DNA of 64,000 bases from Methanosarcina barkeri 3 (GTDB lineage Archaea > Halobacteriota > Methanosarcinia > Methanosarcinales > Methanosarcinaceae): NCBI RefSeq assembly GCF_000970305.1, contig NZ_CP009517.1, forward strand, positions 2,728,001-2,792,000. Reading direction: 5' to 3'. Below, one piece after another: positions 33,122 to 50,815 of the stretch. The notes under the pieces were generated by a model that had not been told where the DNA came from, did not search any database, and saw only the letters and a program-made list of their open reading frames with translations. Within the stretch, counting starts at the first letter, position 1, and every line of letters starts with the position of its first letter. The translations under genes were made by a program, and so were the position numbers.

Positions 33122-35308
33122 TTATTTTGTCACTTTTATATAGTTTGATTTTGTTTTTGTATTACTTCCTGCTGCGTTTGTTGCTGTGAGTTTAACAGTA
33201 TAAGTTCCTGCAGCTGAATATGTGTGTACTGGACTTTTTTGTGTTGAGTATGTCCCATCTCCGAAATCCCATCTCCACTTCGTTGGAGAGCCTTTGCTTG
33301 CCTCTGTAAATGTAACCTTTAGTGGAGCTTTTCCTGAGAGTGTAGAGCCCCAGAATTCCGCAACTGGAGCTTGTGAAGTTGATGTCACTATGATATACTT
33401 TGATTTTGTTGCAGTGTTACTACCTGCAGCATTCGTTACTGTAAGTTTAACAGTATATTTTCCTGCTTTGGAATACTTATGTGTTGGGTTCTGGGATGTT
33501 GACGATGTTCCGTCTCCGAAATCCCATTTCCATTTAGTGGGTTTTCCTGTACTTTTGTCAGTAAACTCAACGTTTAGAGATGCATTTCCTGATTTTGGAG
33601 ATGCATAAAATACAGCAGCTGGAGTTTGAGAAGTTGTTGTAACGGTTACATAATTTGATTTTGTTACCGTGTTGCTGCCTGCTGCGTTACTTGCTGTCAG
33701 TGTTACCGTGTATTTTCCTGCAGCTGAATACTTATGTGTTGGGTTCTGCAAGGTTGAGGAGGTTCCGTCTCCAAAGCTCCATTTCCACTTAGTGGGTGCT
33801 CCTGTGCTTGTGTCAGTAAATTTAACGTTTAACGGAACTTTTCCTGAGGTAGGAGACGCAGAAAATGCAGTAACTGGCTTTGATGTAGCTACTGTCACGG
33901 TGATATAATTAGACTTTGTTACCGTGTTACTGCCGGCTGCATTGGTTATTGTAAGGGTTACTGTGTATTTTCCTGCTTTGGAGTACTTGTGCGTTGGACT
34001 CTGGGATGTTGAAGTTGTTCCGTCTCCAAAGCTCCATTTCCACTTAGTGGGTGTTCCTATGCTTGTGTCAGTGAATTTAACGTTTAATGGAGCTTTTCCT
34101 GAGGTTGGAGACGCAGAAAAGGCAGCAACAGGCTTTGTTACCACTTTTATATAATTTGCTTTTGTTAGTGTATTACTGCCTGCTGAGTTGGTTGCTGTAA
34201 GTGCAACCGTATAATTTCCTGCTTTGGAATACTTATGCGTTGGATTCTGGGCTGTTGAACTTGTTCCGTCTCCAAAGCTCCATTTCCACTTCGTTGGTGA
34301 TCCTGTGCTTGTGTCAGTAAATTTTACATTCAGTGGAGCGTTTCCTGAGGTTGGAGATGCAGAAAAAGCAACAATCGGTTTTGTAGGCCCTGATTTATAG
34401 ACAACTAGAGGAAGGTTGTCAGAATAGATGCTGCCTGTTATGCTTTTATATGCAGAATCGGAAATTCCATCCCTATTTTTATCTGCTGCGGTATTGGAAA
34501 ATCCTGTACCATCAGGTTTTCCCCAGAAGTTGCCTCCGATATATGGTCCGCCTACAATATTAGTACCTGCAGTCTTTTTGGTATTATAGACGTTTCCGAT
34601 TCCGTTTTTAATAGTCATATTGGTGTCATTGAAGTAGTTATTGTAAATCTGGTTTGCGTCACTTTTGCCACAGATATAAAACCCATAAACATTGCTGTTT
34701 TGAATGGTGTTGCCTGAGAGTGTATTGCCATCTGAATTACCAATATGAATCCCACGACCGTTATTAAGGGCCGTGTTTCCTGAAAGGGTATTGTCTGTAG
34801 CAGTCCCAAGTACAATTCCATATTCCCTGTTGTTAGTAGCTGTATTCTTTGACAGTTTGTCCCCTTTAGAACGCAGGACATAAGTTCCATAACAGTTGTT
34901 CATAAGTTTGTTGTTCTCAATTATGCAGTTACTGCATGAGGACAGATAGATTCCTGCATTACCGGACCGGGTTGCTCCTACGGCCTTAAATCCAGTTATT
35001 TTTATGTTGTCTCCCTGCAGGAGGAACACACTGGCTCCTGAGCTTTTGGCTTTAATCATGGTATTATCAGGGTTTCCGGACTCTGAACGGATTGTAAGAT
35101 CATCTTTAGTTACATTGATATTTTCAGTATAGGTCCCGGATTTTACAGTAATTACATCGCCGGAAGAAGAACTATCCACAGCTTTTTGAATAGAACTTCC
35201 TGGCTGCACTATAATCTCGGCTGCAGCCCCAAGATTTGATATTAATACTAATATGAAAATAGCTACTAACAAAGTGGTTAATTTTTTAATTTTAATTCCT
35301 CCGTCCAC
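33122..35308 (-). CDS. Surface protein: beta-helix plus five PKD domains
   Basis: 728 residues if started at the GTG at 35308, which aligns exactly with the ATG of the downstream paralog; an upstream in-frame start at 35326 is less likely. Signal peptide (LTTLLVAIFILVLISNLGAAA), NosD-type beta-helix (about 30-240), GPYIGGNFWGKPDGTGF module, then five PKD domains, each with WKWxFGDGTxST and HKYSxAGxYTV. The last domain ends in SNYIKVTK. Domain four and five sequences are more diverged than one to three. A surface/adhesion role is inferred from architecture; no catalytic site is seen. Confidence 0.92.
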   Translation of the reverse strand: MDGGIKIKKLTTLLVAIFILVLISNLGAAAEIIVQPGSSIQKAVDSSSSGDVITVKSGTYTENINVTKDDLTIRSESGNPDNTMIKAKSSGASVFLLQGDNIKITGFKAVGATRSGNAGIYLSSCSNCIIENNKLMNNCYGTYVLRSKGDKLSKNTATNNREYGIVLGTATDNTLSGNTALNNGRGIHIGNSDGNTLSGNTIQNSNVYGFYICGKSDANQIYNNYFNDTNMTIKNGIGNVYNTKKTAGTNIVGGPYIGGNFWGKPDGTGFSNTAADKNRDGISDSAYKSITGSIYSDNLPLVVYKSGPTKPIVAFSASPTSGNAPLNVKFTDTSTGSPTKWKWSFGDGTSSTAQNPTHKYSKAGNYTVALTATNSAGSNTLTKANYIKVVTKPVAAFSASPTSGKAPLNVKFTDTSIGTPTKWKWSFGDGTTSTSQSPTHKYSKAGKYTVTLTITNAAGSNTVTKSNYITVTVATSKPVTAFSASPTSGKVPLNVKFTDTSTGAPTKWKWSFGDGTSSTLQNPTHKYSAAGKYTVTLTASNAAGSNTVTKSNYVTVTTTSQTPAAVFYASPKSGNASLNVEFTDKSTGKPTKWKWDFGDGTSSTSQNPTHKYSKAGKYTVKLTVTNAAGSNTATKSKYIIVTSTSQAPVAEFWGSTLSGKAPLKVTFTEASKGSPTKWRWDFGDGTYSTQKSPVHTYSAAGTYTVKLTATNAAGSNTKTKSNYIKVTK

Positions 35309-35868
35309 TAAAAGAAGTTTTGGCAAGACTTTAATTGTAACTAAAGAGAGTTTACAGTGAATACCTACATAAACTCACGAGTGCAAAATTATTCTCTTAC
35401 TCAAAGAATTTGTTTATCTTTTGTAAGATGCCTCAAGTAAATTCCATTAATTAAGCTGGAATTCAAATAATAGAATATAAATATACTGAAATTATGTTAA
35501 ATTGAATAAATTAGTATTTAAAAATATTCTTTATGTAATTTATATATAGTAGGATAACCCAGGTTATTTAACTTAATAGAATATCTTACTATAGGTTATT
35601 GTCTTATTTTAATTAGTCAACTATTTATTAATTTCAAAATAGGGAAGATTTAAACTTGAATTACCCAGATAAAAGAACAATAGCCTTCAGGACGATAAAA
35701 GTAAGTTCGTCTTCTCAAATTAGAACTGTATTTGAACCTGTAGGTTCAGAGTTACTCAAATATGATTAAATCCAAAATTAATGTATTCAAAACTAGATTA
35801 AAAATGAGAAAATAGGAAATCTTTATCATCACCATATAAGAAATAATATATAAAAAGGGGATGAAAAG
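35309..35868. other. Divergent AT-rich spacer
   Basis: About 560 bp between the minus-strand surface gene and the plus-strand gerW-like gene. Several TATA-like runs occur (for example TTTATATATAG at 35539-35549). No gene or hairpin of note. Confidence 0.45.
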
Positions 35869-40224: not shown

Positions 40225-40770
40225 TTACCGCCTGATGCTTACCAGTAATCTTTTTTTCGTTATGGGCACTAATTTTTTCCATTCTACTACGGCATCTTCG
40301 TGAAACTCATATTCGTCTACAGTCTTATCAGAAAACTTGCCATCTACTTCATATATATAAAATCCCTCTTCCCCATCCGTAGAGACGACCTTGACTCTGT
40401 TCCCCATTTTCTTAACTTCTACGGCAGCCACATTTTTCAGGGCTTCAAGCAGCGTCGTACCCTGTTCAACCTCAAGCCTCCTGTTTTCTGCAAAGTGGTC
40501 CAGAAAAGAATAGACATTGTTCAGTTTGATACCTATCATATGTGTATTTCCAAACTTTTTTCTTTCCACAAGTTCGGCTTTTTCCAATATTTTTATATGT
40601 CTGGCAGCTACAGGCACGGAAATTCCTATTTCTCTTGCCAGACCGGATATATGTTTATCTCCTTCACTCAGGTGTTCAAGAATTGAAAGGCGCGTATCGC
40701 TTGAAATCGCCTTGAAAAGGTTTTCTCTGCCACCATTCATTCCAGAACTCCGCACAACATTTACTACCAT
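40225..40770 (-). CDS. ArsR-type regulator with transcobalamin-like (DUF4430-like) C-terminus
   Basis: 181 residues from the ATG at 40770, or 171 from MNGGREN at 40740, which has GGAG in front. Residues about 18-90 form an ArsR-type winged helix (FKAISSDTRLSILEHLSEGDKHISGLAREIGISVPVAARHIKILEKAELV). The C-terminal part (about 110-181), GFYIYEVDGKFSDKTVDEYEF followed by VEWKKLVP, resembles the small beta domain DUF4430 of cobalamin-binding transcobalamin-like proteins; this match is by eye only. The gene faces away from the DUF2162-ExbB-DUF2149 operon and is its likely regulator. TATA-like TTATAA lies 26 bp before the upstream ATG, so transcription may start at or near it. Confidence 0.75.
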   Translation of the reverse strand: MVVNVVRSSGMNGGRENLFKAISSDTRLSILEHLSEGDKHISGLAREIGISVPVAARHIKILEKAELVERKKFGNTHMIGIKLNNVYSFLDHFAENRRLEVEQGTTLLEALKNVAAVEVKKMGNRVKVVSTDGEEGFYIYEVDGKFSDKTVDEYEFHEDAVVEWKKLVPITKKRLLVSIRR

Positions 40771-41223
40771 GATGAGCTCTATTTTATCTCAAATACTTAT
40801 AATTATTGCTTTATTCAGAACAAGTAAAGTAAACTATTAGATCTTTTCATTGCTTTTTTATTTTTTAGTTTTAACAAATTTACTTTAATTACAGGTTTTT
40901 GTTTTCTTCTGTTTCCAATCATTACCTGATAAATAGAATTAATTCTTGCATAATACTTGTTAAATTAGAAATTTATTTTATTATCGCTGTCAATTGATAT
41001 CGTTTTAAAAGAGTATTATTTTACTATCTTACTAATTTAACGTCTAAACATGCCCTGAATTTAACTCATTAAGTTATTTCTCCATCTCTAACAGAAAACG
41101 GGGTGGAAATAAATTTTTAGTCTAAAAAATGCACTCTGTGAGCCCTTGTTACCTTAAAAGATAACAAGTATTACCCAAAAGCCAGGGTTTATTTAATTCT
41201 ACTATAGATGCTCAGAAGGTAAT
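40771..41223. promoter_or_regulatory. Divergent control region of the ExbB/CobN-type locus
   Basis: A 453-bp AT-rich region between the ArsR gene and the DUF2162-like gene. It should contain both promoters and the operator of the ArsR protein. For the right gene TATTTAATTCTAC at about 41189-41201 may be the TATA box, giving a start close to the ATG at 41224. I could not find a convincing palindrome. Confidence 0.4.
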
Positions 41224-41916
41224 ATGGACTCTACTGCATTAACTGTTATTGGTATTTTGATAGGTATCCTTGTCTTTGGAATTAAATCTGGAATAGGATG
41301 TGGGTTTTCAAACATAAGTAAAAGAGAAATTTTTGCAATTGGAGGTAGTTATTTTCTCCTGGCTCTTTTATTCGGAAGTGTTGCTGATCACATAAGCCTT
41401 GAAGCCTTTGAGAAGTTTTCTTCAATGGGCATGGGAATCCATGTACTTGTTTCCCTGCTTCTCATAGTGACCGGAATTTACACCCAGAAAAAATGGAACT
41501 CAGGAAAAGATGTTTCCAGGCACACTTTTCTCGCTATATCCGTACCATGTCCAGTATGTATGGCAGCCCTTGCATTATCTTGCATGCTGCTTTCACAGAG
41601 CCTTAATCTTTCCGGAATAAAAGTCGGGCTCCTTGTAGGGGTTGCTTTTTTTATAGCAGTTGTGGCTTCTTCTTTTCTTTTCAGGTTTGGAAAGATTCGA
41701 CTTGGAAAGACTCCTGAAACTATGGGCAGTGCAATGATGCTGATAGGAATCTATTATCTATTAGGAGCTCTTCTTATCCCTGCATATATACAGACAAAAA
41801 AGATGAATCTTATTTCAACCGGAGGAGGAGAAACAGGAATAATACCTCTTATGGCTTTTGGAGTCATTGTCCTTGCAGGTTTTTTCCTGGACCGTATAAG
41901 GAGGCATGATCTATGA
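41224..41916 (+). CDS. Polytopic membrane protein, DUF2162-like
   Basis: 230 residues with about six to seven hydrophobic segments (about 5-25, 35-55, 75-92, 100-125, 135-155, 175-192, 207-225). The third region holds a cysteine pair in VPCPVCMAALALSCMLL, a possible metal or redox site inside the membrane. I place it in the DUF2162 group of putative transporters that accompany ExbB-like and DUF2149 genes in methanogens. The stop overlaps the ExbB-like start as ATGA, so the two are translationally coupled. Substrate is unknown; a role in moving a cofactor or metal is inferred from context. Confidence 0.72.
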   Translation: MDSTALTVIGILIGILVFGIKSGIGCGFSNISKREIFAIGGSYFLLALLFGSVADHISLEAFEKFSSMGMGIHVLVSLLLIVTGIYTQKKWNSGKDVSRHTFLAISVPCPVCMAALALSCMLLSQSLNLSGIKVGLLVGVAFFIAVVASSFLFRFGKIRLGKTPETMGSAMMLIGIYYLLGALLIPAYIQTKKMNLISTGGGETGIIPLMAFGVIVLAGFFLDRIRRHDL

Positions 41917-42536
41917 GCCTGATGAATTTATTATCCGACATGATGAATGTCTTCTCAACGGCTTTGCTAATTCCTGTGATGTTTCTTCTCACCATTCTCG
42001 TGTTTATTTCCTTAATTCAATTAGGAGAATTCCTTTCCGAGTATACAAAAAGACATAGGGACTGGAATAATCTGGAAACTAACTGCAAAAAAATTGAGCT
42101 CAATCTTCAGAATTCGGATTTTTCGGAAGCCTCCATAGCTCTTGAGAATATCAAACAAAATTATATGGTCACTTCTTTTGCACGAGACGCTGCGAAATAC
42201 CTGAAAGAGCGGCATTTTCCTGCAATTGAGAGGCTTTCGCAGGAATATGAAATCAAGATGGCAAAACGCCTTGAACATACAAAGATAACTTCAACTATCG
42301 GTCCCATGCTTGGCCTTATGGGGACGCTTATTCCGTTAGGCCCTGCTCTGATAGGGCTTTCGAAAGGAGACCTCGAGACCCTTGCACAAAACCTGATGAT
42401 TGCTTTTGCGACAACCGTTGTAGGGCTTTTTGCTGCCGGAATAGGCTATGTGCTTACACAGGTCAGACGGCGCTGGTACTGGGAAGATATGTCGGACATA
42501 GATTATATCCTGGATACCATTGAGGAAAAGAATTGA
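41913..42536 (+). CDS. MotA/TolQ/ExbB-type proton channel protein
   Basis: 207 residues. An N-terminal membrane helix (about 18-36), a cytoplasmic helical domain (about 40-125) and two closing helices (about 125-150 and 160-185) match the ExbB/TolQ layout. The signature TKITSTIGPMLGLMGTLIPLGPAL (about 124-147) and LMIAFATTVVGLFAAGIGYVLT (about 160-181) are characteristic of the proton-channel part. In bacteria such proteins use the proton gradient to drive TonB or Tol. Here it sits between a DUF2162-like protein and an ExbD-like DUF2149 protein, and no TonB is visible. It starts within the stop of the upstream gene. Confidence 0.92.
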   Translation: MSLMNLLSDMMNVFSTALLIPVMFLLTILVFISLIQLGEFLSEYTKRHRDWNNLETNCKKIELNLQNSDFSEASIALENIKQNYMVTSFARDAAKYLKERHFPAIERLSQEYEIKMAKRLEHTKITSTIGPMLGLMGTLIPLGPALIGLSKGDLETLAQNLMIAFATTVVGLFAAGIGYVLTQVRRRWYWEDMSDIDYILDTIEEKN

Positions 42537-42569
42537 AATTTATCATCTCTTAATAGCGAGGAAGAATTC

Positions 42570-43007
42570 ATGAGAAAGTCCAGAAGATACAGGCGGACAG
42601 GGCTTTTAAAAGATGAGGATGAGCAAAGCCCTATGATAAACGTTGCCAATGTTTTTGATGTTGCAATGGTCTTTTCTGTAGCTCTATTAGTTGCACTTGT
42701 TATGTCATATCACCTCCCAGAACTTCTGAGCTCCAATGAGGATTTTACCATTGTCAAAAATCCGGGAGCTCAGGATATGAAGATCGTCATCAAAGAAGAA
42801 GGTAAACCCATTGAAGTCATGAATATGACCGATAATATAGGAGGAGGAACCGGAGAAGCTCTTGGAACAGCTTACAGGCTCGCCGACGGCAAGGTAATTT
42901 ACGTACCTGATAATGGTACATCTTCAGGTACATCTTCAGGTACATCTTCTTCGTCAGGTACGTCTGCTCCAACTAAAGTAATTTCACTCAAATCTAACTC
43001 AGATTGA
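42570..43007 (+). CDS. ExbD-like DUF2149 protein
   Basis: 145 residues: a short basic N-terminus, one membrane helix (about 25-46) with an aspartate in NVFDVAMVFSVALLVALVM, and an outer domain ending in YRLADGKVIYVPDNG. The membrane aspartate corresponds in position to the proton-carrying Asp of ExbD/TolR (PLVDVMLVLLIF-type motif). The end is low complexity, with GTSS repeats coded by a 12-bp direct repeat (GGTACATCTTCA). It lies 33 bp behind the ExbB-like gene with GAGGAAG before the ATG. It is probably the stator partner of the ExbB-like channel. Confidence 0.85.
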   Translation: MRKSRRYRRTGLLKDEDEQSPMINVANVFDVAMVFSVALLVALVMSYHLPELLSSNEDFTIVKNPGAQDMKIVIKEEGKPIEVMNMTDNIGGGTGEALGTAYRLADGKVIYVPDNGTSSGTSSGTSSSSGTSAPTKVISLKSNSD

Positions 43008-43364
43008 TTAGCCTGAAAGTCCTGTTTACTTCAGGTATTTTCATTTATTTGCACATGTTATTCCTAAGATATTCATTTTCGTAATAATTCATCCGAGATA
43101 AAACAATATCAATATCAGTCGTTACTAAGACTCAATGTACCAAATTTTCAATATATTTTCTTACTGTTGGTGTTAATTATGTTTATTCTTACGGTTCGTT
43201 GGTTACTTGTCGAAGTTCCTGTTTTTATTAAAATGATATTGCCAACTTATTTTGGTAGGTTGAACAATTACTAACTTTCCAGGAAAGTTAGTTTATTTTG
43301 GTTTTTCCACTTTAAGTATAATTTTTAATTTATTCTCTGAAAACTTTATCGAATTGGCTCCTTT
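43008..43364. other. Spacer behind the ExbD-like gene
   Basis: About 360 bp without a gene. It contains the near-perfect palindrome at 43271-43291, listed separately, which may end the upstream operon. Confidence 0.45.
43271..43291. terminator. 21-bp palindrome, terminator or operator
   Basis: CTAACTTTCC-A-GGAAAGTTAG is a perfect 10-bp inverted repeat with a 1-bp centre, followed by T-rich sequence. It lies 260 bp after the DUF2149 gene and about 90 bp before the duplicated leader. Either a terminator of the ExbB-type operon or a protein-binding site. Confidence 0.45.
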
Positions 43365-43672
43365 ACCCTAAAAGCTAATAATTGTGAGCTAAACACTTTA
43401 TTTTATATATTATATCCATATATTCTAAGCGTTAAAAACATATTACAAAATCAGCCATTTATTAGCTTCAGAAATTTCCGGTTTTAAAATTAATATCCAG
43501 AATCTAGAATTTTCGATTTCACTTTTAAAACTTAATGGCTGTTTCCTGTAGGTTTTTGAGAAATTCCTAAATCAGAACTTTTAGACTGACAATAGTCTGG
43601 TGAGCTAGACATCCTGAATATTTTTTCACCTGGGATGTTCCGTGGTTCATTATCGATTATCTGGGGATAAAA
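43365..43672 (+). promoter_or_regulatory. Duplicated leader, copy A
   Basis: About 305 bp homologous to the region before cobN (46195-46504). Shared landmarks in the same order: TTTACCC...AGCTAATAAT, TTATTTTATATATT (TATA box, about 43398-43411), CGATTTCACTTTTAAAACTTAA, a small hairpin (43583-43598), TGAGC, a second hairpin (43609-43638) and CTGGGGATAAA before an ATG. The predicted start near 43432 gives a leader of about 240 nt. Both hairpins differ in sequence from copy B but still pair. Confidence 0.65.
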
Positions 43673-43783
43673 ATGCAAGAAAAACTTATAATGATAGCGG
43701 TTTTAGTTCTACTGGTATTGACATCATTATCAACTATTCTATACTGGTGGAATCTACCACTGGCTAAGAAAAAAATGTTTTGA
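43673..43783 (+). CDS. Small single-span membrane peptide (36 aa)
   Basis: A 36-residue frame starting MQEKLIMIAVLVLLVLTS and ending PLAKKKMF: a short basic start, one hydrophobic helix, and a Trp pair near its end. The ATG occupies the same place, behind CTGGGGATAAA, as the cobN start in the second copy of the leader. It is therefore either a real tiny membrane protein under the same control as cobN, or the remaining signal-peptide end of a lost cobN paralog. The two possibilities cannot be separated from one sequence. Confidence 0.45.
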   Translation: MQEKLIMIAVLVLLVLTSLSTILYWWNLPLAKKKMF

Positions 43784-44029
43784 ATTTGTATTGGAAAATC
43801 GGTGCAAAACATGACAGCCAAGTTTTTTCGGGCAAATAGTCCATTTTTACGGAAACTTTGCTTATTTTATATTTTTGAAGTCTCTTCGAATTAAGAAGAA
43901 CTTCATGGTACTTCCGGAAAAGGAAACATTGCAAATGCGGTACCAGATAAGTATATTTGTTTTCTGCTAAGAGTTATTAGCTTTTCCGTTAAGGATATTA
44001 TTTAATAGCCGGAGACCAAACTTATAACT
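43784..44029. promoter_or_regulatory. Promoter of the DUF1638 gene
   Basis: ATTATTTAATAG at about 43996-44007 is TATA-like and lies about 25 nt before the ATG at 44030, so the message may begin at the start codon (leaderless). No ribosome binding site is seen before the ATG, in agreement. Confidence 0.4.
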
Positions 44030-44824
44030 ATGACAGCTCTGGGTATAGTTGGGTGTAGAGTATTTGAGGATGAAATTACCCATGTGCTTGCAAACGGTCC
44101 TGATATAGACAGGATCTACATCATAGAAAACGAAGAAAACGACGGCCTTCTATACAAGCTTGAATCCGAAGGATTTGAACCAGTTGTCCTGCCCTTTTAC
44201 AAAATAAAAACAGACCTGAAACGTAGTAATGAGTTCAGCATTATTGTTCAGCTTCAGGGAATGGGACTCCATATAGACCCTGCCCTGCTTAAAAGTAAAA
44301 CGTATACAAACGTTGACCTCATGTCCAGGCTTGTGGACGGAATTCTACTTTTTTACGGCTCCTGCGGACAGGCATTTTCCAGGATACAAAGAGATTTTGC
44401 TCATAAGGGATGCCCTATAAAGCCACTTCAGGACAGGAGCACAGGCGAATCAATCAAACCCGTTGAAGACTGCATTGCAGCAGCTCTCGGAGGCAACTCT
44501 AATTATCGGAAAATCCTGAAAAATCACAGTGACACCTTTTTCTTAACTCCTATGTGGGCTGTAAACTGGAAGACTGTCTTCAGAGTTGGCGATAAACCGC
44601 CTCTGGGTTTTGAATTCACTCCTGAATATATGAGAGAACTCGGTTACCGAAAAGTTGCCGGAATTAACACGAAACTATCCTATGAATCTGATTTTGAGAA
44701 AAAAATTGAAGAATTTGCACATAACTTCGGTTTCGAGATCATAGAACTGGAAGGAAGCACTGAAATAGTGAAAAAATCGTATAACCAGATGCGAACCATG
44801 CTTCGCAGGCCACTTAAAGTCTAA
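44030..44824 (+). CDS. DUF1638 domain protein
   Basis: 264 residues, soluble. The family stretch begins ALGIVGCRVFEDEITHVL and includes LLFYGSCGQAFSRIQ, PLQDRSTGESIKPVEDCIAAALGG and FLTPMWAVNWKTVF. Cys10 and the cysteine in YGSCGQ, together with the one at GCPIKPLQD, are candidate ligand residues. DUF1638 proteins occur in methanogens near methyltransferase and corrinoid genes; a link to corrinoid metabolism is family context plus the neighbouring cobN-like gene. The reaction is unknown. It lacks a ribosome binding site and may be translated from a leaderless message. Confidence 0.85.
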   Translation: MTALGIVGCRVFEDEITHVLANGPDIDRIYIIENEENDGLLYKLESEGFEPVVLPFYKIKTDLKRSNEFSIIVQLQGMGLHIDPALLKSKTYTNVDLMSRLVDGILLFYGSCGQAFSRIQRDFAHKGCPIKPLQDRSTGESIKPVEDCIAAALGGNSNYRKILKNHSDTFFLTPMWAVNWKTVFRVGDKPPLGFEFTPEYMRELGYRKVAGINTKLSYESDFEKKIEEFAHNFGFEIIELEGSTEIVKKSYNQMRTMLRRPLKV

Positions 44825-45089
44825 ATATGTTTTTTTCTTAACAGCGCTCTAAATTACTGAAATATTCCCTTGTTATGTCAATTTCAAGATGAATAGCTTT
44901 AATTCAGAAGCTGTATATAATTCTTGATACCTTCCCAGCACTGAGAGCTTCTTCATCTTCAGTTACAGGACTATTTTTCATGAAGCAAATCATGTCTACA
45001 AAATATTAAAAAGTAGTTATTTTTTAGCTTACGTGACATTATCAGGTAAACCTTCAGCTTATGCAAATCAGTACATTGATTTTATCCCG

Positions 45090-45164
45090 ATGTAATTGAT
45101 ACTGATCTCAATATAATTGATACTGATTTCAATGTAACTGATACTGATTTCAATATAGTTGATA
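45090..45164. repeat. 21-bp tandem repeat
   Basis: About 3.5 copies of a 21-bp unit (AATTGATACTGATTTCAATGT-like) at steps 45094, 45115, 45136 and 45157. Confidence 0.85.
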
Positions 45165-45427
45165 AGTGCAAGTACGAACCGGTGGAAAAAAGAGATCAAT
45201 TCCAGCAATTAAAGAAGTCAGTTTAGAAATATTTCCATATTGGACTTTAACAATAAATGCCCATAGCCGGAAGTTAAAGTATTGAGTTCATCATTTTGGT
45301 GTTGAGATAATTGACCATAAACGTACGACAGAATTAATCATAAAAGTAAGACATAATTGACATAAAAATAAAACAAGTTGACCATAAAAATGCGATGAAA
45401 GAGAGAAAAAATAATAGAAACTTTAAA

Positions 45428-45600
45428 GCAAATTACTCCCGGAAGACTGCAGTCTTAAGGATATAAAAATGGCAAACTAATCCTTAGACTGCAGTTTAAA
45501 AAAGTGTTAAATAGCAAATTATTCCCGGAAGACTGCAGTTTTTAGGAGAATAAAATGGCAAATTACTCCTGGGAAACTACAGATTTACGGAGGTTTAACT
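45428..45600. repeat. Interspersed repeat with inverted arms
   Basis: GCAAATTACTCCCGGAAGACTGCAG occurs in related form at 45428, 45514 and 45558. Between the first two, GACTGCAGTCTTAAGGA is followed by its inverse TCCTTAGACTGCAGT about 30 bp later, so a hairpin is possible. Function unknown. Confidence 0.7.
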
Positions 45601-46194
45601 GGCACCTCAGGTGACAAATCAAGTAAATTTGATTTGCATATAAGTAAACTTACATTTAAATATATAAATATTTCGTAGTCTTAAGACACCACCAATAAAA
45701 GAGATAGATCGCAAAACAAGTTAAAGTGAAGAATTGAATTATATAAAAATGTTAGAATATAAAAAGGAAGAAATAATAAAAAGAAATAAGCACTAATAAA
45801 ATAAATAGACATTAATAATATAAATAGACGTTAATAATATAAATAGTTACCAATAAAGATAAATGAATATTTTAAGCAAGTAGATGATTTTAAATAAACA
45901 AGTTATTTTCTTTGCTATTAGGTTAGCCAGTATGTAGTGTTTCATAGTTATCAAAGAATTTCGTTGATTTATGAATGAAAGAAAAATGCACTTTACTATT
46001 TCAAACAGGTAACTTATAGTTACTTTTTGAATTTGATCTGACAAAGATAATGTTTTGAAAGTTTAGTGGTGAAATAATATTCAAAAGATATAATTCTCTA
46101 TTTTTGTACTTATTCTTTAATTGAGTAATAATCGTTCTCGAGTTCTGCAAAACAATGAAGAGTCATAATATGCACTATACAAAAAATGCTATTT

Positions 46195-46504
46195 ATTGAC
46201 CTTTTTACCCAAATAGCTAATAATCGTAATCCAAAAACCTCATTTTATATATTTTATTTCTTAATGCTCCAAATGTTAAATCTGTAATACAGAATCGGCT
46301 GCCCATTAATTTTTGGAAGTTCTTGACTTGAATTGTAAGCAAAATCGAAAGCATCCAATTTCACTTTTAGAACTTAACGACTGTTCCGAACAAGTTTCTA
46401 AAATTCGCAAAATTTTAACATAAAATCAACCAGTGAGCAAAGCATTCCGGTTATCTTTCTTCCGGGGTGCTCTACGGTTCATGAGACATTATTCTGGGGA
46501 TAAA
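46195..46504 (+). promoter_or_regulatory. cobN promoter and structured leader (copy B)
   Basis: Homologous to copy A at 43365-43672. TATA box CATTTTATATATTTTA at about 46241-46256; predicted start near 46275, giving a leader of about 230 nt. Late in the leader are two hairpins: ATTTTA-ACA-TAAAAT (46412-46426) and AGCATTCCGG paired with CCGGGGTGCT (46441-46450 with 46462-46471, two G-U pairs). CTGGGGATAAA then leads into the ATG. The arrangement looks like a regulatory RNA. I found no match to the conserved core of cobalamin riboswitches. Confidence 0.65.
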
Positions 46505-49500
46505 ATGCGTACGGCACAAAGTAGATTATTGGTATTATGTGCAGTAATCCTTTTAATGCTAGCACAGAATGTATCGGCTGATGAAAACCATGTGAATATT
46601 ACTTTTATCTGTTATGATGGAAGTGCTCTTGCGACAGCAGAGCAGTCCAATCCATACAACTCAAGTATTAATGTAACGTATATTTCTGGGTATTCTGATT
46701 TTAGCAATGTTACTTTTGAAAACCAGGATGTAATATTCACTTATATGCTCTGGTCTCAGTTCAAAGATATCGGGGACGATCTCGAAAGTGCCCACAAAAA
46801 CGGGACTGCACTTATAGATATTTCTTCTGCAATAGATACAACATATATCAACACTTCAAGTTATGATCATATTTTTACCGGGACCAAACCATACAATTCT
46901 ACAGAAGAGAAATTCTTCTACAATATGGGCTCCAGAGGAATCCTGAAGAAAAACACTGAAAATTTCATTACATATCTAGCAAAAACATATGGAGATAAAC
47001 CTGAACTTACGAAAAACTGGGTTTATGAAGACCCTGTAGAATTCCCCGAAGCAGCAATTTACCATCCGGATGCCCGTTCTTCAACTAACGAATCTCAACC
47101 CGACTGGTTTGAAAACACAACTGACTACCTTGAATGGTACTCTAACTCAACTAACTCAAATGAATCACGACATATTTACGACAAAAGCAAGCCAACTATA
47201 GGGATATGGTTCCATGCTTCGGATTATACAGGTGACAACCTTGAGGTCATAGATGCACTCATCCGTGATCTGGAAGGAAAAGGCTGCAACGTAATTGCAG
47301 GTTTTGATACTTTCAATGATATTCATAAGTTTTACTTTGATGAGAATGGAGAGCCTCTTGTCCAGTGCGTAATTTCTCTTAAAAGCTTCCGTTTGAATTA
47401 TGATGATCCTGATAAAGGTGTACAGGAGCTTAAAGACCTTGATGTTCCCGTGCTTACCGGACTGGTTGTTACAAATCCTGCAAACTCTACCGACATAGCT
47501 GACGGTAATAGAGGTATCCCAAGTGAGGAGGTTGTATACAAGACTCTACTTCCGAGCATTGATGGAATTTTCGAGTATATTGTTGTCGGAATTGATAATT
47601 ACGATTCCGAAATCGGTGAAAGCAACTATGAACCTCTTCCCTCCCAGATTGACTGGATGGCAAACAGGTCAATTAACTGGGCGAACCTGAAGTTAGAGAA
47701 TAATAAGGATAAGAAAGTCGCTGTCATCTATTACAATTACCCTTCAGGGAAAGACAACATCGTAGCAAATTATCTTAATTCCACCCAGAGCATGTTTGAA
47801 CTCCTCAATGCAATGAATAAAAGTGGCTATGAGGTCTCCGGAATTCCGGAAAACAGCAGTAAGCTCATGGAAATGCTTCAGGCACAGGGTATAAACGTAG
47901 GTTCCTGGGCTCCCGGTGTTCTGAATGGAATGGTAGAAAACAGGACTGAGTGGGGACTGCAACTCATACCTATGGATACCTATAAAGAATGGTTTGAATC
48001 CGAAATTCCGGAAAATCTGAGATCCAATGTAACCTCTGAATGGGGAGAACCCTGGTCCGAAGACCTGCCTCAAAATAAGAGTGTTATGATCTATGAAAAT
48101 GAAACCGGAAAATATATTGTAATTCCTACGGTACGCTTCGGAAATGTCTGGCTCATGCCCCAGCCTGCCAGAGGAACAGGACAAAACAATGACACTCTTT
48201 ACCACAGCAACGTTGTACCTCCCACACACCAGTACATAGCTTTCTATCTCTGGCTACACCACGAGTTCCAGCCTGATGCACTTATTAATATGGGTACTCA
48301 CGGTACGCACGAGTGGCTTCCGGGTTCTACTTACGGCATGAACCGGACTTCAGACTGGTCTCCTCTCTTGTTGCAGGATACTCCGAATATCTATCCTTAC
48401 ATCGTTGCCAACGTGGGAGAAGGAATAACTGCGGAGTACAGGGGTAATGCCCTGATTATTGACCATCTGACTCCAACCCTTGAGCGTGGTGGGCTTTATG
48501 GAGATTTGCAAAACCTTTCAACTAATGTGGAAGGGTATTATGATCCAGGAATTTCTTCTCAGACAAAAGCAGGATACCAAAAAGCCATAGTAAACGAAAT
48601 AATAGCACTCAACCTAAGTGTTGATCTGGGAATAGATAACGTAACTACTCTTCAAAATTATAATGAAACAGAGTTTGGGAATTTTGTTAAAAATTCACTT
48701 CATGAGTATTTGGAAGATATAGGAAATGAAAATATCCCATACGGTATGCATATTCTCAGCCATGTTCCTACGACAAATAAGACAGATCCTGAAAGTGACG
48801 AACTTACCGGAATGGTAAGAGCTATGCTTGGAGGAAATTTTGAGGAAAATGTCACTGCTGCCTTCTATCCTGAATCTGCTTATCCTCTCGGAATTCCACT
48901 GAATGATACAAAAGTTACTAAACTTGTCTGGGAGGTCGTAACCAATAATACAAGCATTTCCAAGGCGCAAACTGCAGTTTATGGGAAAACTAACAGTACA
49001 GTTACACTTGATCTTGAACAGGGGCTGGATTATAAGAACAGGCTTCTTAACTGCGACGTGGAGATTGACAGAATTCTTTCAGCCCTGAGTGGAGGCTTTA
49101 TCCCACCAGGTTCGGGACTGGACCCAATTATGAACCCTGATGCAGTACCTACAGGGCGCAACTATTACAGCATAAACTCGAAGCTTTATCCTTCAGAGGC
49201 AACATGGGAAGTAGGTAAATCTCTTGCAGTCCAGTTGATTGAGGATTACTATAAAGAACATGGGGAATATCCTAAAAAAGTTTCATTTTCAAGATTCGGG
49301 GTGGAGTTCATTGCGGATCACGGGACTCTGGAAGCTGAAGTGCTTTATCTGCTCGGAGTAAAACCTGTCTGGGATGAGAACGGATATGTAACCGGAGTTG
49401 AAGCTATCCCTGAAGAAGAACTATTGCCAAATTATGATACTTCAAAGCCTGGGAGACCACGTATTGATGTTGTCTACTCAACAGCAGGAATGAGGGATGC

Positions 49501-50815
49501 TTTCCCGGATAAGATCAAAATGATAGACAGTGCCGTGAAACTTGCAAGTTCTCTTCCTGGCGTAAACTATCCCAACTACGTTAATCAAAGTTCCCTTACA
49601 CTCTATGACTCTCTGATTGCTGCAGGGTATGACAACGAGACTGCAACAAAACTCTCTACAATGCGCTGTTTTGCAGTAATGGACGGTACTTATGAGATAG
49701 GGGTCTCAGACGCTATCAGTGCAAGCGGGACATGGGAGAATGAAGAAGCTATTGCGAACGTATACCTGAACAAGATGGGATACGCTTACGGAGAAGATTT
49801 CTGGGGCATCCAGTGCAGACAACTCCTTGAGGGAAACCTCAAAAGCGTTGAAGCATCAGTACATTCGTCTTCTTCAAACCTTTACGACTCCCTTGACAAC
49901 GATGACCTTTTCCAGTACTTCGGCGGCATGAACCTGGCAACGAGGTATCTTAGCGGCAAGACTCCGGAGATGTATATTTCGGACACAAGTGACCTGGACA
50001 GAGCTCAGATGGTGGGAATGCAAGAGTACCTCAGCAAGGATCTGCGAGCCAGATATTTCAATGACAAATGGATAGAAGGAATGCAGAACTCCGGATATTC
50101 AGGCGGCAGCATGATGTCCGATTTTGTGAACAACCTTTTCGGCTGGGAGGTAAGTGATCCTGAACTTGTGGACGATACTGTCTGGCAAGATGTGTATGAA
50201 ACATATGTAAATGATCCTTCTATGAAAGAATGGTTCAAGAAGAATAACCCTAATGCTTACCAATCCGTGACAGCGAGAATGCTTGAGGCAGTCAGGCACG
50301 ACTACTGGAAACCTTCAGAGGATGTTGTCGAAAATCTTGCAAAGGAATATGAAGAATCCGTGGCAGAGAATGGAGTTTCGTGCTGTCACCATACCTGTGG
50401 AAATCCCCTGCTTCATGAGTTCGTAAGTGGAACAGTATCTGTTCCAGGCTACGCTGAGCAAATAGAAACTGCAACTAAAGCTAAAAATCTGGAGACTACA
50501 GAGGAGACCCAGAGCAGTAGTGGTAGTCATCATGACCATAATACCGGAAATGCTACCGTAGTACCGAAAACCAGCTCATCCAGCAACCAGACGTCTCAGG
50601 ATTCAAGTGGAGGATATGGTACAGATACTTCCAAACCTGAACCTGAAGTCAAGAAATCCGCAGATACTGATTATGTTGAAGGGTATGAGATGCAGAAGGA
50701 TTCTGCCGAAAAACCTGAGAATAATGGGGTCTCATTTTCAGGCTCCGATATCTTCGGAATTCTCTTTGTGGTGGTAGCCGCCGGTGGAATTTACCTGGGT
50801 ATTCGGAAGAAATAA
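46505..50815 (+). CDS. Secreted, membrane-anchored CobN-like chelatase subunit
   Basis: 1436 residues from the ATG at 46505, chosen because a signal peptide follows at once (RTAQSRLLVLCAVILLMLAQNVSA) and the frame upstream is part of the leader. The body is homologous to CobN/BchH, the large tetrapyrrole-binding subunit of metal chelatases: YLWLHHEFQPDALINMGTHGTHEWLPG (about residue 580-607), PYIVANVGEGITAEYRGNALIIDHLTPTL, and CCHHTCGNPLLHEFVSG near 1292. A linker with SGSHHDHN and many Ser/Thr leads to a C-terminal membrane helix (about 1409-1433) and RKK. So the chelatase-like body lies outside the cell, away from ATP and from CobS/CobT-type partners. Binding and delivery of corrinoids, other tetrapyrroles or cobalt is a better guess than metal insertion. 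It ends in a strong terminator. Confidence 0.88.
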   Translation: MRTAQSRLLVLCAVILLMLAQNVSADENHVNITFICYDGSALATAEQSNPYNSSINVTYISGYSDFSNVTFENQDVIFTYMLWSQFKDIGDDLESAHKNGTALIDISSAIDTTYINTSSYDHIFTGTKPYNSTEEKFFYNMGSRGILKKNTENFITYLAKTYGDKPELTKNWVYEDPVEFPEAAIYHPDARSSTNESQPDWFENTTDYLEWYSNSTNSNESRHIYDKSKPTIGIWFHASDYTGDNLEVIDALIRDLEGKGCNVIAGFDTFNDIHKFYFDENGEPLVQCVISLKSFRLNYDDPDKGVQELKDLDVPVLTGLVVTNPANSTDIADGNRGIPSEEVVYKTLLPSIDGIFEYIVVGIDNYDSEIGESNYEPLPSQIDWMANRSINWANLKLENNKDKKVAVIYYNYPSGKDNIVANYLNSTQSMFELLNAMNKSGYEVSGIPENSSKLMEMLQAQGINVGSWAPGVLNGMVENRTEWGLQLIPMDTYKEWFESEIPENLRSNVTSEWGEPWSEDLPQNKSVMIYENETGKYIVIPTVRFGNVWLMPQPARGTGQNNDTLYHSNVVPPTHQYIAFYLWLHHEFQPDALINMGTHGTHEWLPGSTYGMNRTSDWSPLLLQDTPNIYPYIVANVGEGITAEYRGNALIIDHLTPTLERGGLYGDLQNLSTNVEGYYDPGISSQTKAGYQKAIVNEIIALNLSVDLGIDNVTTLQNYNETEFGNFVKNSLHEYLEDIGNENIPYGMHILSHVPTTNKTDPESDELTGMVRAMLGGNFEENVTAAFYPESAYPLGIPLNDTKVTKLVWEVVTNNTSISKAQTAVYGKTNSTVTLDLEQGLDYKNRLLNCDVEIDRILSALSGGFIPPGSGLDPIMNPDAVPTGRNYYSINSKLYPSEATWEVGKSLAVQLIEDYYKEHGEYPKKVSFSRFGVEFIADHGTLEAEVLYLLGVKPVWDENGYVTGVEAIPEEELLPNYDTSKPGRPRIDVVYSTAGMRDAFPDKIKMIDSAVKLASSLPGVNYPNYVNQSSLTLYDSLIAAGYDNETATKLSTMRCFAVMDGTYEIGVSDAISASGTWENEEAIANVYLNKMGYAYGEDFWGIQCRQLLEGNLKSVEASVHSSSSNLYDSLDNDDLFQYFGGMNLATRYLSGKTPEMYISDTSDLDRAQMVGMQEYLSKDLRARYFNDKWIEGMQNSGYSGGSMMSDFVNNLFGWEVSDPELVDDTVWQDVYETYVNDPSMKEWFKKNNPNAYQSVTARMLEAVRHDYWKPSEDVVENLAKEYEESVAENGVSCCHHTCGNPLLHEFVSGTVSVPGYAEQIETATKAKNLETTEETQSSSGSHHDHNTGNATVVPKTSSSSNQTSQDSSGGYGTDTSKPEPEVKKSADTDYVEGYEMQKDSAEKPENNGVSFSGSDIFGILFVVVAAGGIYLGIRKK

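Follow-up and report, generated by a model that had tools for sequence, protein, structure and literature searches.

A candidate proton-motor-driven, surface-anchored CobN-family chelatase for cobalt or corrinoid acquisition in Methanosarcina barkeri

Introduction

How might a class I tetrapyrrole chelatase be energised if it works on the outer face of a cell with a single membrane? The question is raised by a 64,000-nucleotide stretch of the Methanosarcina barkeri 3 genome (NZ_CP009517.1, positions 2,728,001 to 2,792,000; hereafter the window), in which genes for a DUF2162 polytopic membrane protein, an ExbB-type proton channel and a DUF2149 protein share a strand with a gene for a very large protein of the CobN family, of the type called BtuS. 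Since ATP is lacking outside the cell, a chelatase at its surface cannot rely on a ChlI/ChlD-like AAA+ partner. An earlier reading of the window (the sequence-only reading) had proposed a Ton-like corrinoid or tetrapyrrole system on the archaeal surface. We examined gene identity, export and anchor segments, co-occurrence and adjacency, a common operator, chelatase clade, active-site letters, cobalt operons in some relatives and matches to TonB parts, of which there were none. With a probability of roughly 60%, the locus is a cell-surface module for cobalt or corrinoid acquisition in which a class I chelatase draws its energy from a dedicated proton motor rather than from an AAA+ ATPase, and TonB takes no part. 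Statements from papers cited by PMC number follow the passages of those papers that were available to us.

Results

A conserved module of chelatase and motor genes

The families named by the sequence-only reading (ArsR, DUF2162, ExbB, DUF2149, DUF1638 and CobN) are all present above their Pfam cut-offs (Table 1). That reading had staked its proposal on co-occurrence beyond chance, and this is what we found in a Pfam survey of 196 genomes sampled evenly over the phylum. DUF2149 occurred in 63 genomes, MotA_ExbB in 62 above its cut-off (64 at E ≤ 0.001), DUF2162 in 54 above its cut-off and CobN in 121. ExbB above cut-off accompanied DUF2149 in 62 of 63 genomes and occurred without it in none, while a CobN gene was present in all 63 and in 58 genomes without DUF2149. 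Within the window's own family, 24 of 25 genomes carry DUF2149. Fisher P values for co-occurrence (8e-51 and 1e-17) overstate independence because the genomes are related.

The motor genes are also adjacent. ExbB lies just upstream of DUF2149 at 77 of 88 DUF2149 places (one of them below cut-off), DUF2149 lies just downstream at 77 of 83 places with ExbB above cut-off, and 57 of 63 DUF2162 places join such pairs; a 64th, an overlapping above-cut-off fragment, was set aside. Genomes G005 and G178, whose ExbB scores stay under the cut-off, do not enter these counts, nor do CobN places. A closer set of 36 neighbourhoods comprised the window and 35 selected stretches, including two that continue another stretch or cover an extra CobN place and some that end with their contig. 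Here ExbB was found in 33, DUF2149 in 31, DUF2162 in 27 and a CobN body in 28; open reading frames (ORFs) shorter than 90 amino acids were excluded from clustering, and 10 ORFs linked to CobN by single linkage but lacking its body, which include part of the degenerate CobN-like rows described below, were not counted. Two or three giant secreted CobN genes stand in tandem behind one motor operon in L039, L040 and L065-L066 (open frames of about 1,700-2,350 amino acids). Eleven plasmid records had a DUF2149 match, and 8 of the 10 inspected (all but H50) carried an annotated CobN; of the remaining stretches, H49 was unannotated there and H51 had a partial DUF2149 match without CobN. We are almost certain that the module is real and well conserved.

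The window's genome, a single contig of 4.56 Mb, has a single match each for DUF2149, DUF2162 and MotA_ExbB, all of them inside the window, and three for CobN: a cytosolic-type one (in a stretch with a ChlI/VWA gene, an ATP-binding cassette (ABC) ATPase and CbiQ), an orphan secreted one and that of the window. The DUF2162, ExbB-type and DUF2149 genes overlap or almost touch (41224-43007) and form an operon. The CobN gene follows 3.4 kb downstream of DUF2149 on the same strand, and this gap, together with a conserved leader of its own of about 320 nucleotides, makes CobN probably a transcription unit separate from the motor operon. The single-strand assembly described before stands for the motor operon and the strand of CobN, with two corrections: CobN and the motor genes are probably transcribed separately here, and DUF1638 is a neighbour that other loci can lack. 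Since an orthologous CobN lies directly behind DUF2149 in two relatives (L074, L200), the gap is not general.

The separation lends something to a different explanation, that what the ExbB/DUF2149 motor drives is DUF2162 or some other process at the surface, with CobN merely co-regulated, as does L046, which has the three motor genes and no CobN within 20 kb, its genome's CobN genes lying far away among the matches listed. We regard this as unlikely: DUF2149 lacks a DUF2162 match above cut-off in nine genomes, yet there is always a CobN gene somewhere in the genome.

A predicted surface chelatase

The window CobN has a hydrophobic segment close to each end, followed by a short basic tail, and both end segments recur in 27 of 33 archaeal CobN rows; they were called by plain hydropathy rather than a signal-peptide program. 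It also carries 37 N-glycosylation sequons (15.6 ± 3.5 in shuffles). The same enrichment was seen in the orphan secreted paralogue and four relatives, and was absent from the cytosolic paralogue (2 versus 5.3 expected), the Halorussus CobN and Bacteroides HmuS. The protein is thus predicted to be exported, membrane-anchored and extracellular, as the sequence-only reading had it, and is probably glycosylated. Counted from GTG 46433, its ORF has 1460 amino acids (46433-50815); the true start is probably ATG 46505, because relatives begin at the equivalent methionine and the leader extends up to this codon. Over the first piece, the CobN of another Methanosarcina sp. (L081) is 97.5% identical.

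Two ORFs outside the module may be recorded here. The orphan secreted CobN (L004:9722-14464) has a Ser/Asn/Gln-rich repeat near its N-terminus, and window ORF 33122-35326, linked to CobN by single-linkage clustering and lacking a CobN body, looks like a repeat-rich surface protein.

Proton-motor genes without a TonB match

In the window's genome no match was obtained to TonB (PF03544), whose absence the sequence-only reading had assumed, nor to TonB-dependent receptors (PF00593) or canonical ExbD (PF02472). A ChlI/D-like AAA+/VWA gene was found in four of six canonical CobN stretches (one of them the query's own), in one of 35 archaeal neighbourhoods (L068, with a cytosolic-type CobN), in none of eight bacterial module loci and in none of the 10 window ORFs scanned. 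The window ExbB matches the solved ExbB structure 5sv0 (E 7.5e-4) and scores far under the NCBIfam exbB equivalog cut-off.

ExbD, TolR and MotB each have one membrane helix with an Asp. DUF2149 has a single membrane helix in which Asp30 is invariant (31 of 31 sequences in one set and 22 of 22 in another), and its bacterial counterpart HmuV is stated to be ExbD-related (PMC10100974). The likeness to ExbD asserted earlier is one of architecture, backed by this published statement on HmuV; by profile no kinship was detected, the DUF2149 profile giving a probability of 0.4% against one canonical ExbD sequence. For DUF2162, whose conserved Cys26 and CPxC (109-112) hint at a possible DsbD/CcdA-like electron carrier, Foldseek found no match at E ≤ 0.001; weak DsbD_2, NicO or Mntp matches were confined to the T-position protein of Runella and an L053 neighbour. 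The AlphaFold2 model of DUF2162 (mean predicted local distance difference test score 85.1) has eight helical elements.

Trichlorobacter carries the ExbB/DUF2149 pair and a separate ExbB/ExbD/TonB set in one gene run. Because both ExbB sets coexist there, and because TonB, receptor and canonical ExbD are without a match here, in our view the pair works with the chelatase (or DUF2162) and not with TonB, a departure from the published assignment of HmuU/HmuV. On balance, the motor probably acts on the chelatase.

Chelatase clade and active-site letters

The best solved-structure match of the window CobN is HmuS 9d26 (471.7 bits versus 397.4 for CobN 7c6o), and NCBIfam CobN equivalog cut-offs were not reached (best 1212.2 bits versus 1619). 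HmuS of Bacteroides is a heme de-chelatase that strips iron from heme, and its catalytic His538 is essential (PMC12583661). In the hmu operon, hmuY-R-S-T-U-V, U is ExbB-type and V is DUF2149 (PMC10434189); we confirmed the T-U-V order in annotated bacterial records. Given this match and these operon members, the archaeal assembly is the archaeal counterpart of the bacterial HmuS-T-U-V/BtuS module, a relationship that the sequence-only reading had overlooked, and hence not unique.

Is it then an archaeal heme-iron system, with HmuS-like removal of iron from heme? The structure match and the shared T-U-V order favour this, as do changes with iron or sulfur source in the levels of two M. barkeri BtuS proteins, which the authors read as heme-related (PMC10846266). 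The tree of 49 rows speaks otherwise; it was made by a quick method, is drawn from the midpoint, and includes rows of varying composition. A branch (100) sets the three HmuS rows apart, an 11-row set (100) unites canonical CobN and BchH with three archaeal rows of cytosolic type, and a 33-row set (98) holds the window protein and most secreted archaeal proteins with those of Trichlorobacter, Runella, Azospirillum, Diaphorobacter and a comamonad.

The active-site letters also differ. The window protein keeps the His538-type residue, as do 29 of 33 archaeal rows, and its version of the HmuS motif HFG(T/A)HG is NMGTHG. Among other HmuS residues, His254 (Ser here), His1209 (Asp), Glu1212 (Gln), Gln1198 and Trp1202 were not found in it; His254 is a heme ligand at the head/neck site, His1209 is the second axial His, and His1209 and Glu1212 sit in LSLDHxxEFMGG. 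In the His1209 column, Asp occurs in 25 of 27 archaeal rows with the motif CCHHTC, in four of six canonical CobN and in four of five exported bacterial proteins (the fifth, from Azospirillum, has His), while His occurs in all three HmuS and both BchH, which have a porphyrin ring as ligand; the six archaeal rows without CCHHTC have His (3), Ile (2) or Gly (1). This letter may mark corrin versus porphyrin substrates. CCHHTC itself stands right before the C-terminal anchor in 27 of 33 archaeal rows, the window protein among them, with CCDHTC in Trichlorobacter, and is absent from HmuS, BchH, canonical CobN and the other four exported bacterial rows.

By clade and by its CobN-like active-site letters, then, the archaeal protein is not HmuS as far as sequence can tell. 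The T proteins of the two systems are likewise without detectable homology: DUF2162 matched neither one HmuT sequence nor three, so that HmuT was rejected as a DUF2162, whereas the Trichlorobacter T protein clearly is one. The UreJ-like T-position protein of Runella was tried as a DUF2162 as well, and no homology was detected. With the cobalt and corrinoid operons of relatives described next, these differences leave the heme explanation improbable.

Cobalt and corrinoid genes beside the module

In six of the 24 neighbourhoods outside the window's family, cobalt or corrinoid genes belong to the same gene run as the module (L053, L055, L057, L062, L063, L067). The order of transcription is cbiM-cbiQ-cbiO-DUF2162-ExbB-DUF2149-CobN-cbiT in L063 and DUF71-DUF2162-ExbB-DUF2149-CobN-cbiM-cbiQ-cbiO-cbiT-cbiL-cbiF in L057. 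Partner families across the six are CbiM, CbiQ, CbiO, CbiT, CbiL, CbiF, CobD and CbiA, and further a FecCD permease, an ABC ATPase, a binding protein, CbiZ, CobS, CbiB and a DUF71-type protein; CbiM of L053 and L063 and CobD of L055 score slightly under their NCBIfam equivalog cut-offs, and the L057 DUF71 was assigned by cluster only. DUF71 proteins are found in B12 salvage clusters. A set of 80 named loci, which may duplicate neighbourhoods of the set above (L133, judged by length, is the contig of L055), gave seven with several cobalt or corrinoid genes, five from anaerobic methanotrophic archaea of group 1 (ANME-1/Methanophagales; L127, L135, L140, L144, L150), one from Methanomicrobiales (L138) and one from Methanosarcinales (L133). 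Inside the window's family, L042 has a FecCD permease and an ABC ATPase about 6 kb away.

In bacteria, the Trichlorobacter CobN ranks first of 159 plasmid records for the window CobN. Its run, TonB-dependent receptor-DUF2162-ExbB-DUF2149-CobN-exbB-exbD-tonB, is preceded by two Cobalamin riboswitches (107.3 and 65.5 bits), and the Trichlorobacter lovleyi module also neighbours cobT, bzaF and cobyric acid synthase. Riboswitch-led hmu-like operons, with cobalamin suspected, have been noted before (PMC10100974).

The exported CobN is thus linked to B12 or cobalt genes in some relatives, and in the window's genome only via a leader copy beside cbiMN. For the corrinoid or cobalt role proposed by the sequence-only reading, the indications come from genes that share an operon with the module in some other archaea and in Trichlorobacter, and not from gene runs in the window's own family. 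We consider cobalt or corrinoid quite a probable substrate, rather than heme.

Some bacterial loci favour another explanation, in which the module scavenges nickel or metal chelates in general (F430 and metallophores are examples) and corrinoids are not preferred. The Runella plasmid module (L157) lies within hypA-hypB-hypF..hypC-hypD-hypE, a nickel cluster, and its T-position protein is weakly DsbD_2/NicO-like; the Azospirillum plasmid module (L158) is near nikR; and the L053 diamide synthase also scores well against the F430 enzyme CfbB (464.2 bits, cut-off 560). Methanogens, moreover, need nickel. But the Runella and Azospirillum proteins stand on other branches, and the archaeal partners include corrin-ring methyltransferases as well as cobalt transporters, which makes this explanation rather improbable. 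Azospirillum L158 has a cobalamin riboswitch between module and importer, and L157 and L158 look like nickel or cobalt versions of the module in bacteria.

The secreted CobN may instead be a receptor that binds corrinoids and passes them intact to an importer, with no removal of metal, an explanation that overlaps our own. It would fit L062 and L067, where FecCD/ABC or binding-protein genes accompany the module (in L067, CbiZ, CobS and CbiB do so too), and L050 and L052, which keep the module without the catalytic-type His. On the other hand, this His is kept in most archaeal rows, as given above, and CbiMQO partners import free cobalt. We rate a pure receptor as possible, at clearly less than even odds. 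L050 and L052 have a secreted CobN with CCHHTC and no catalytic-type His, and may be binding-only forms.

A common operator

Ahead of DUF2162, and again within the CobN leader, TTACCCAAAA is directly repeated at a period of 22 bp, and the motor operon and CobN have this operator in common in several Methanosarcina genomes. At up to three mismatches, the pattern gave 28 sites in 12 Methanosarcina genomes versus 15 for a reversed-pattern control; 11 of the 28, in seven genomes, directly precede DUF2162 (7) or CobN (4), as do six of eight sites at up to two mismatches. At the level of sequence, this repeat links CobN and the motor also where the two are separated, as in the window. It may be bound by the ArsR protein, a candidate regulator of the motor operon with an NCBIfam HTH_metalloreg score of 51.7 bits, slightly under the cut-off of 55; its homologues occur in five of 36 sources, every one from the window's genus or family.

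The leader is common to paralogous CobN genes. A third copy in the genome (L171, G000:C1:2017795 region; 73% over 173 nucleotides) precedes a truncated CobN head, which matches the N-terminus of the L043 protein at 75% identity and is divergent from cbiM-cbiN of a cobalt energy-coupling factor transporter. No Rfam match (E ≤ 0.1) was found for the CobN leader, in the window stretch or in seven archaeal loci; a riboswitch was therefore dropped for the archaeal loci, and the common leader is taken as promoter plus operator. At the window edge (207-326) are two minus-strand copies of an operator-like direct repeat (TATCCCAAAA, 22-bp period).

Proposed mechanism and contrary evidence

We propose that the chelatase would be exported, glycosylated and held by its ends on the outer face of the single membrane. 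Energy would come from the ExbB/DUF2149 pair, where proton entry via ExbB would move DUF2149, whose outer part would open or reset the chelatase. The latter would bind cobalt tetrapyrroles (corrinoids or fragments) and either strip their cobalt or pass them on, and cobalt or ligand would enter via DUF2162, or via separate CbiMNQO/BtuCDF importers, for corrinoid synthesis. The action of the motor on the chelatase, the direction of the reaction and transport by DUF2162 are conjectural steps. Removal of cobalt from corrinoids is a tentative suggestion, falling well short of an even chance. The full version, in which a chelatase driven by the proton gradient through ExbB/DUF2149 rather than by ATP de-cobaltates corrinoids outside the cell, giving the Ton/Tol/Mot superfamily a new job, is doubtful.

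Several observations weigh against this proposal, besides the nickel surroundings of the Runella and Azospirillum modules (the latter with His in the 1209 column), the iron- or sulfur-dependent BtuS levels in M. barkeri, L050 and L052, and the CobN-free surroundings of the L046 motor. Cobalt or corrinoid genes are present in just six of the 24 outside-family neighbourhoods, five of the six from one family, and in none of 11 inside the window's family. One of the six, L067, has a degenerate CobN, which with that of L054 lies outside the 33-row clade on a long branch. A CobN body is present in just 28 of 36 sources, and in L060 and L068 (family f9) ExbB/DUF2149 stand beside a CobN without export segments. 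The operator pair is below threshold in L045 of the same genus, in six loci of other genera or later stretches (including L038, L040, L042, L065 and L072) and in the third leader copy, while G125, which lacks the module, holds three of the 28 operator-like sites. Lastly, DUF2149 was predicted poorly and gave no usable model for structure search, and DUF2162 had no decisive fold match, its best VIA Z scores of 8.0 (a transporter half) and 7.5 (ZIP) being in a range common for helical proteins. L060 and L068 also have radical-SAM proteins and a gene for a 543-amino-acid binding-protein-like product, and L068 additionally the ChlI/D gene; they do not fit a simple model.

Other features of the locus

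Coordinates are collected in Table 1. The region behind DUF2149 is perhaps the remnant of a deleted CobN paralogue, and the decayed leader copy there is read as its mark because L043, L045, L075 and L078 carry another CobN paralogue right behind DUF2149; the CobN-tail-like scrap is not significant (E 2.8-3.4). Among 11 named loci tested, DUF1638 was present in L076 and L082 and in part in L081, and L073 stops soon after DUF2149. DUF1638 adjoins a secreted CobN in two genera (in the window and at L042:3986-4825).

Table 1. Features of the chelatase and motor locus in window coordinates
Feature	Coordinates	Strand	Remarks
ArsR-type regulator	40225..40770	-	Pfam HTH_5 40.5 bits, above cut-off; divergent from motor operon
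Direct-repeat operator TTACCTTAAA-n12-TTACCCAAAA	41149..41180	+	75 bp ahead of DUF2162 start
DUF2162 polytopic membrane protein (T position)	41224..41916	+	Pfam PF09930 235.5 bits
ExbB/MotA/TolQ-type proton channel (U position)	41913..42536	+	Pfam PF01618 MotA_ExbB 43.4 bits, cut-off 22.9
DUF2149 (V position), one membrane helix	42570..43007	+	Pfam PF09919 113 bits
Probable scar: decayed CobN-leader copy and tail-like scrap	43362..43781	+	Leader match 67% at 43362-43543
DUF1638 protein, optional neighbour	44030..44824	+	Pfam PF07796 126.7 bits
Conserved CobN leader	46182..46504	+	About 320 nucleotides; operator copy inside at 46205-46236
CobN-family (BtuS-type) chelatase, predicted secreted and C-terminally anchored	46505..50815	+	CobN-Mg_chel 1022.3 bits, cut-off 24.5

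Discussion

The 2025 HmuS paper, in the passages available, left the role of archaeal CobN/HmuS homologues open and assigned the ExbB/ExbD-like pair to the TonB receptor. Because the archaeon keeps this pair with a chelatase, though receptor, TonB and canonical ExbD are all without a match, our results suggest a chelatase and a motor as the conserved core; Trichlorobacter, whose single gene run includes ExbB of either kind, points the same way. If the motor does drive the chelatase, then by extension HmuU-HmuV of gut Bacteroides would power HmuS itself, not the outer-membrane receptor as in the published model. The proposal bears on the power source of exported class I chelatases and on the cobalt supply for corrinoid enzymes of methanogens and ANME archaea, and it cautions against reading such genes in methanogen genomes or proteomes as genes for heme or for B12 synthesis.

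In the literature collection that we searched, we found no paper describing the module in archaea, the closest, as far as its available passages go, being PMC10846266. Among known systems, Bacteroidota hmuYRSTUV likewise encodes, at one locus and in T-U-V order, a polytopic protein, an ExbB homologue and DUF2149 alongside an extracytoplasmic CobN-family protein anchored in the membrane; the archaeal system differs in its genome without a receptor or TonB match, in chelatase clade and active-site letters, and in its cobalt and corrinoid context. BtuS, the 'third type' of CobN, is also exported and was predicted to serve metalloporphyrin salvage (Rodionov 2003 as cited in PMC6460266), and the riboswitch-led hmu-like operons (PMC10100974) are its likely bacterial counterpart here; the BtuS reports concern bacteria with an outer membrane, and the passages available propose no role for the motor in chelation. 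The plasmid cobN cluster of Trichlorobacter (Geobacter) lovleyi has the order DUF2162-ExbB-DUF2149-CobN and the related cysteine motif but also its own receptors and a separate exbB-exbD-tonB, and its description, in the part available, suggested transport and called the exact role of CobN unknown (PMC3403914).

The class I chelatases CobN-CobST and ChlH-ChlID share the family and the His538-type residue but lack the two hydrophobic end segments, and several lie beside AAA+/VWA genes, whereas the archaeal protein is predicted to be exported and occurs with proton-motor genes. ExbB-ExbD-TonB similarly pairs an ExbB homologue with a one-helix protein carrying a membrane Asp, but TonB, receptor and canonical ExbD all lack a match in the archaeal genome. 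Overall, the archaeal assembly is a variant of the Hmu/BtuS kind that probably serves for cobalt or corrinoids and works without TonB.

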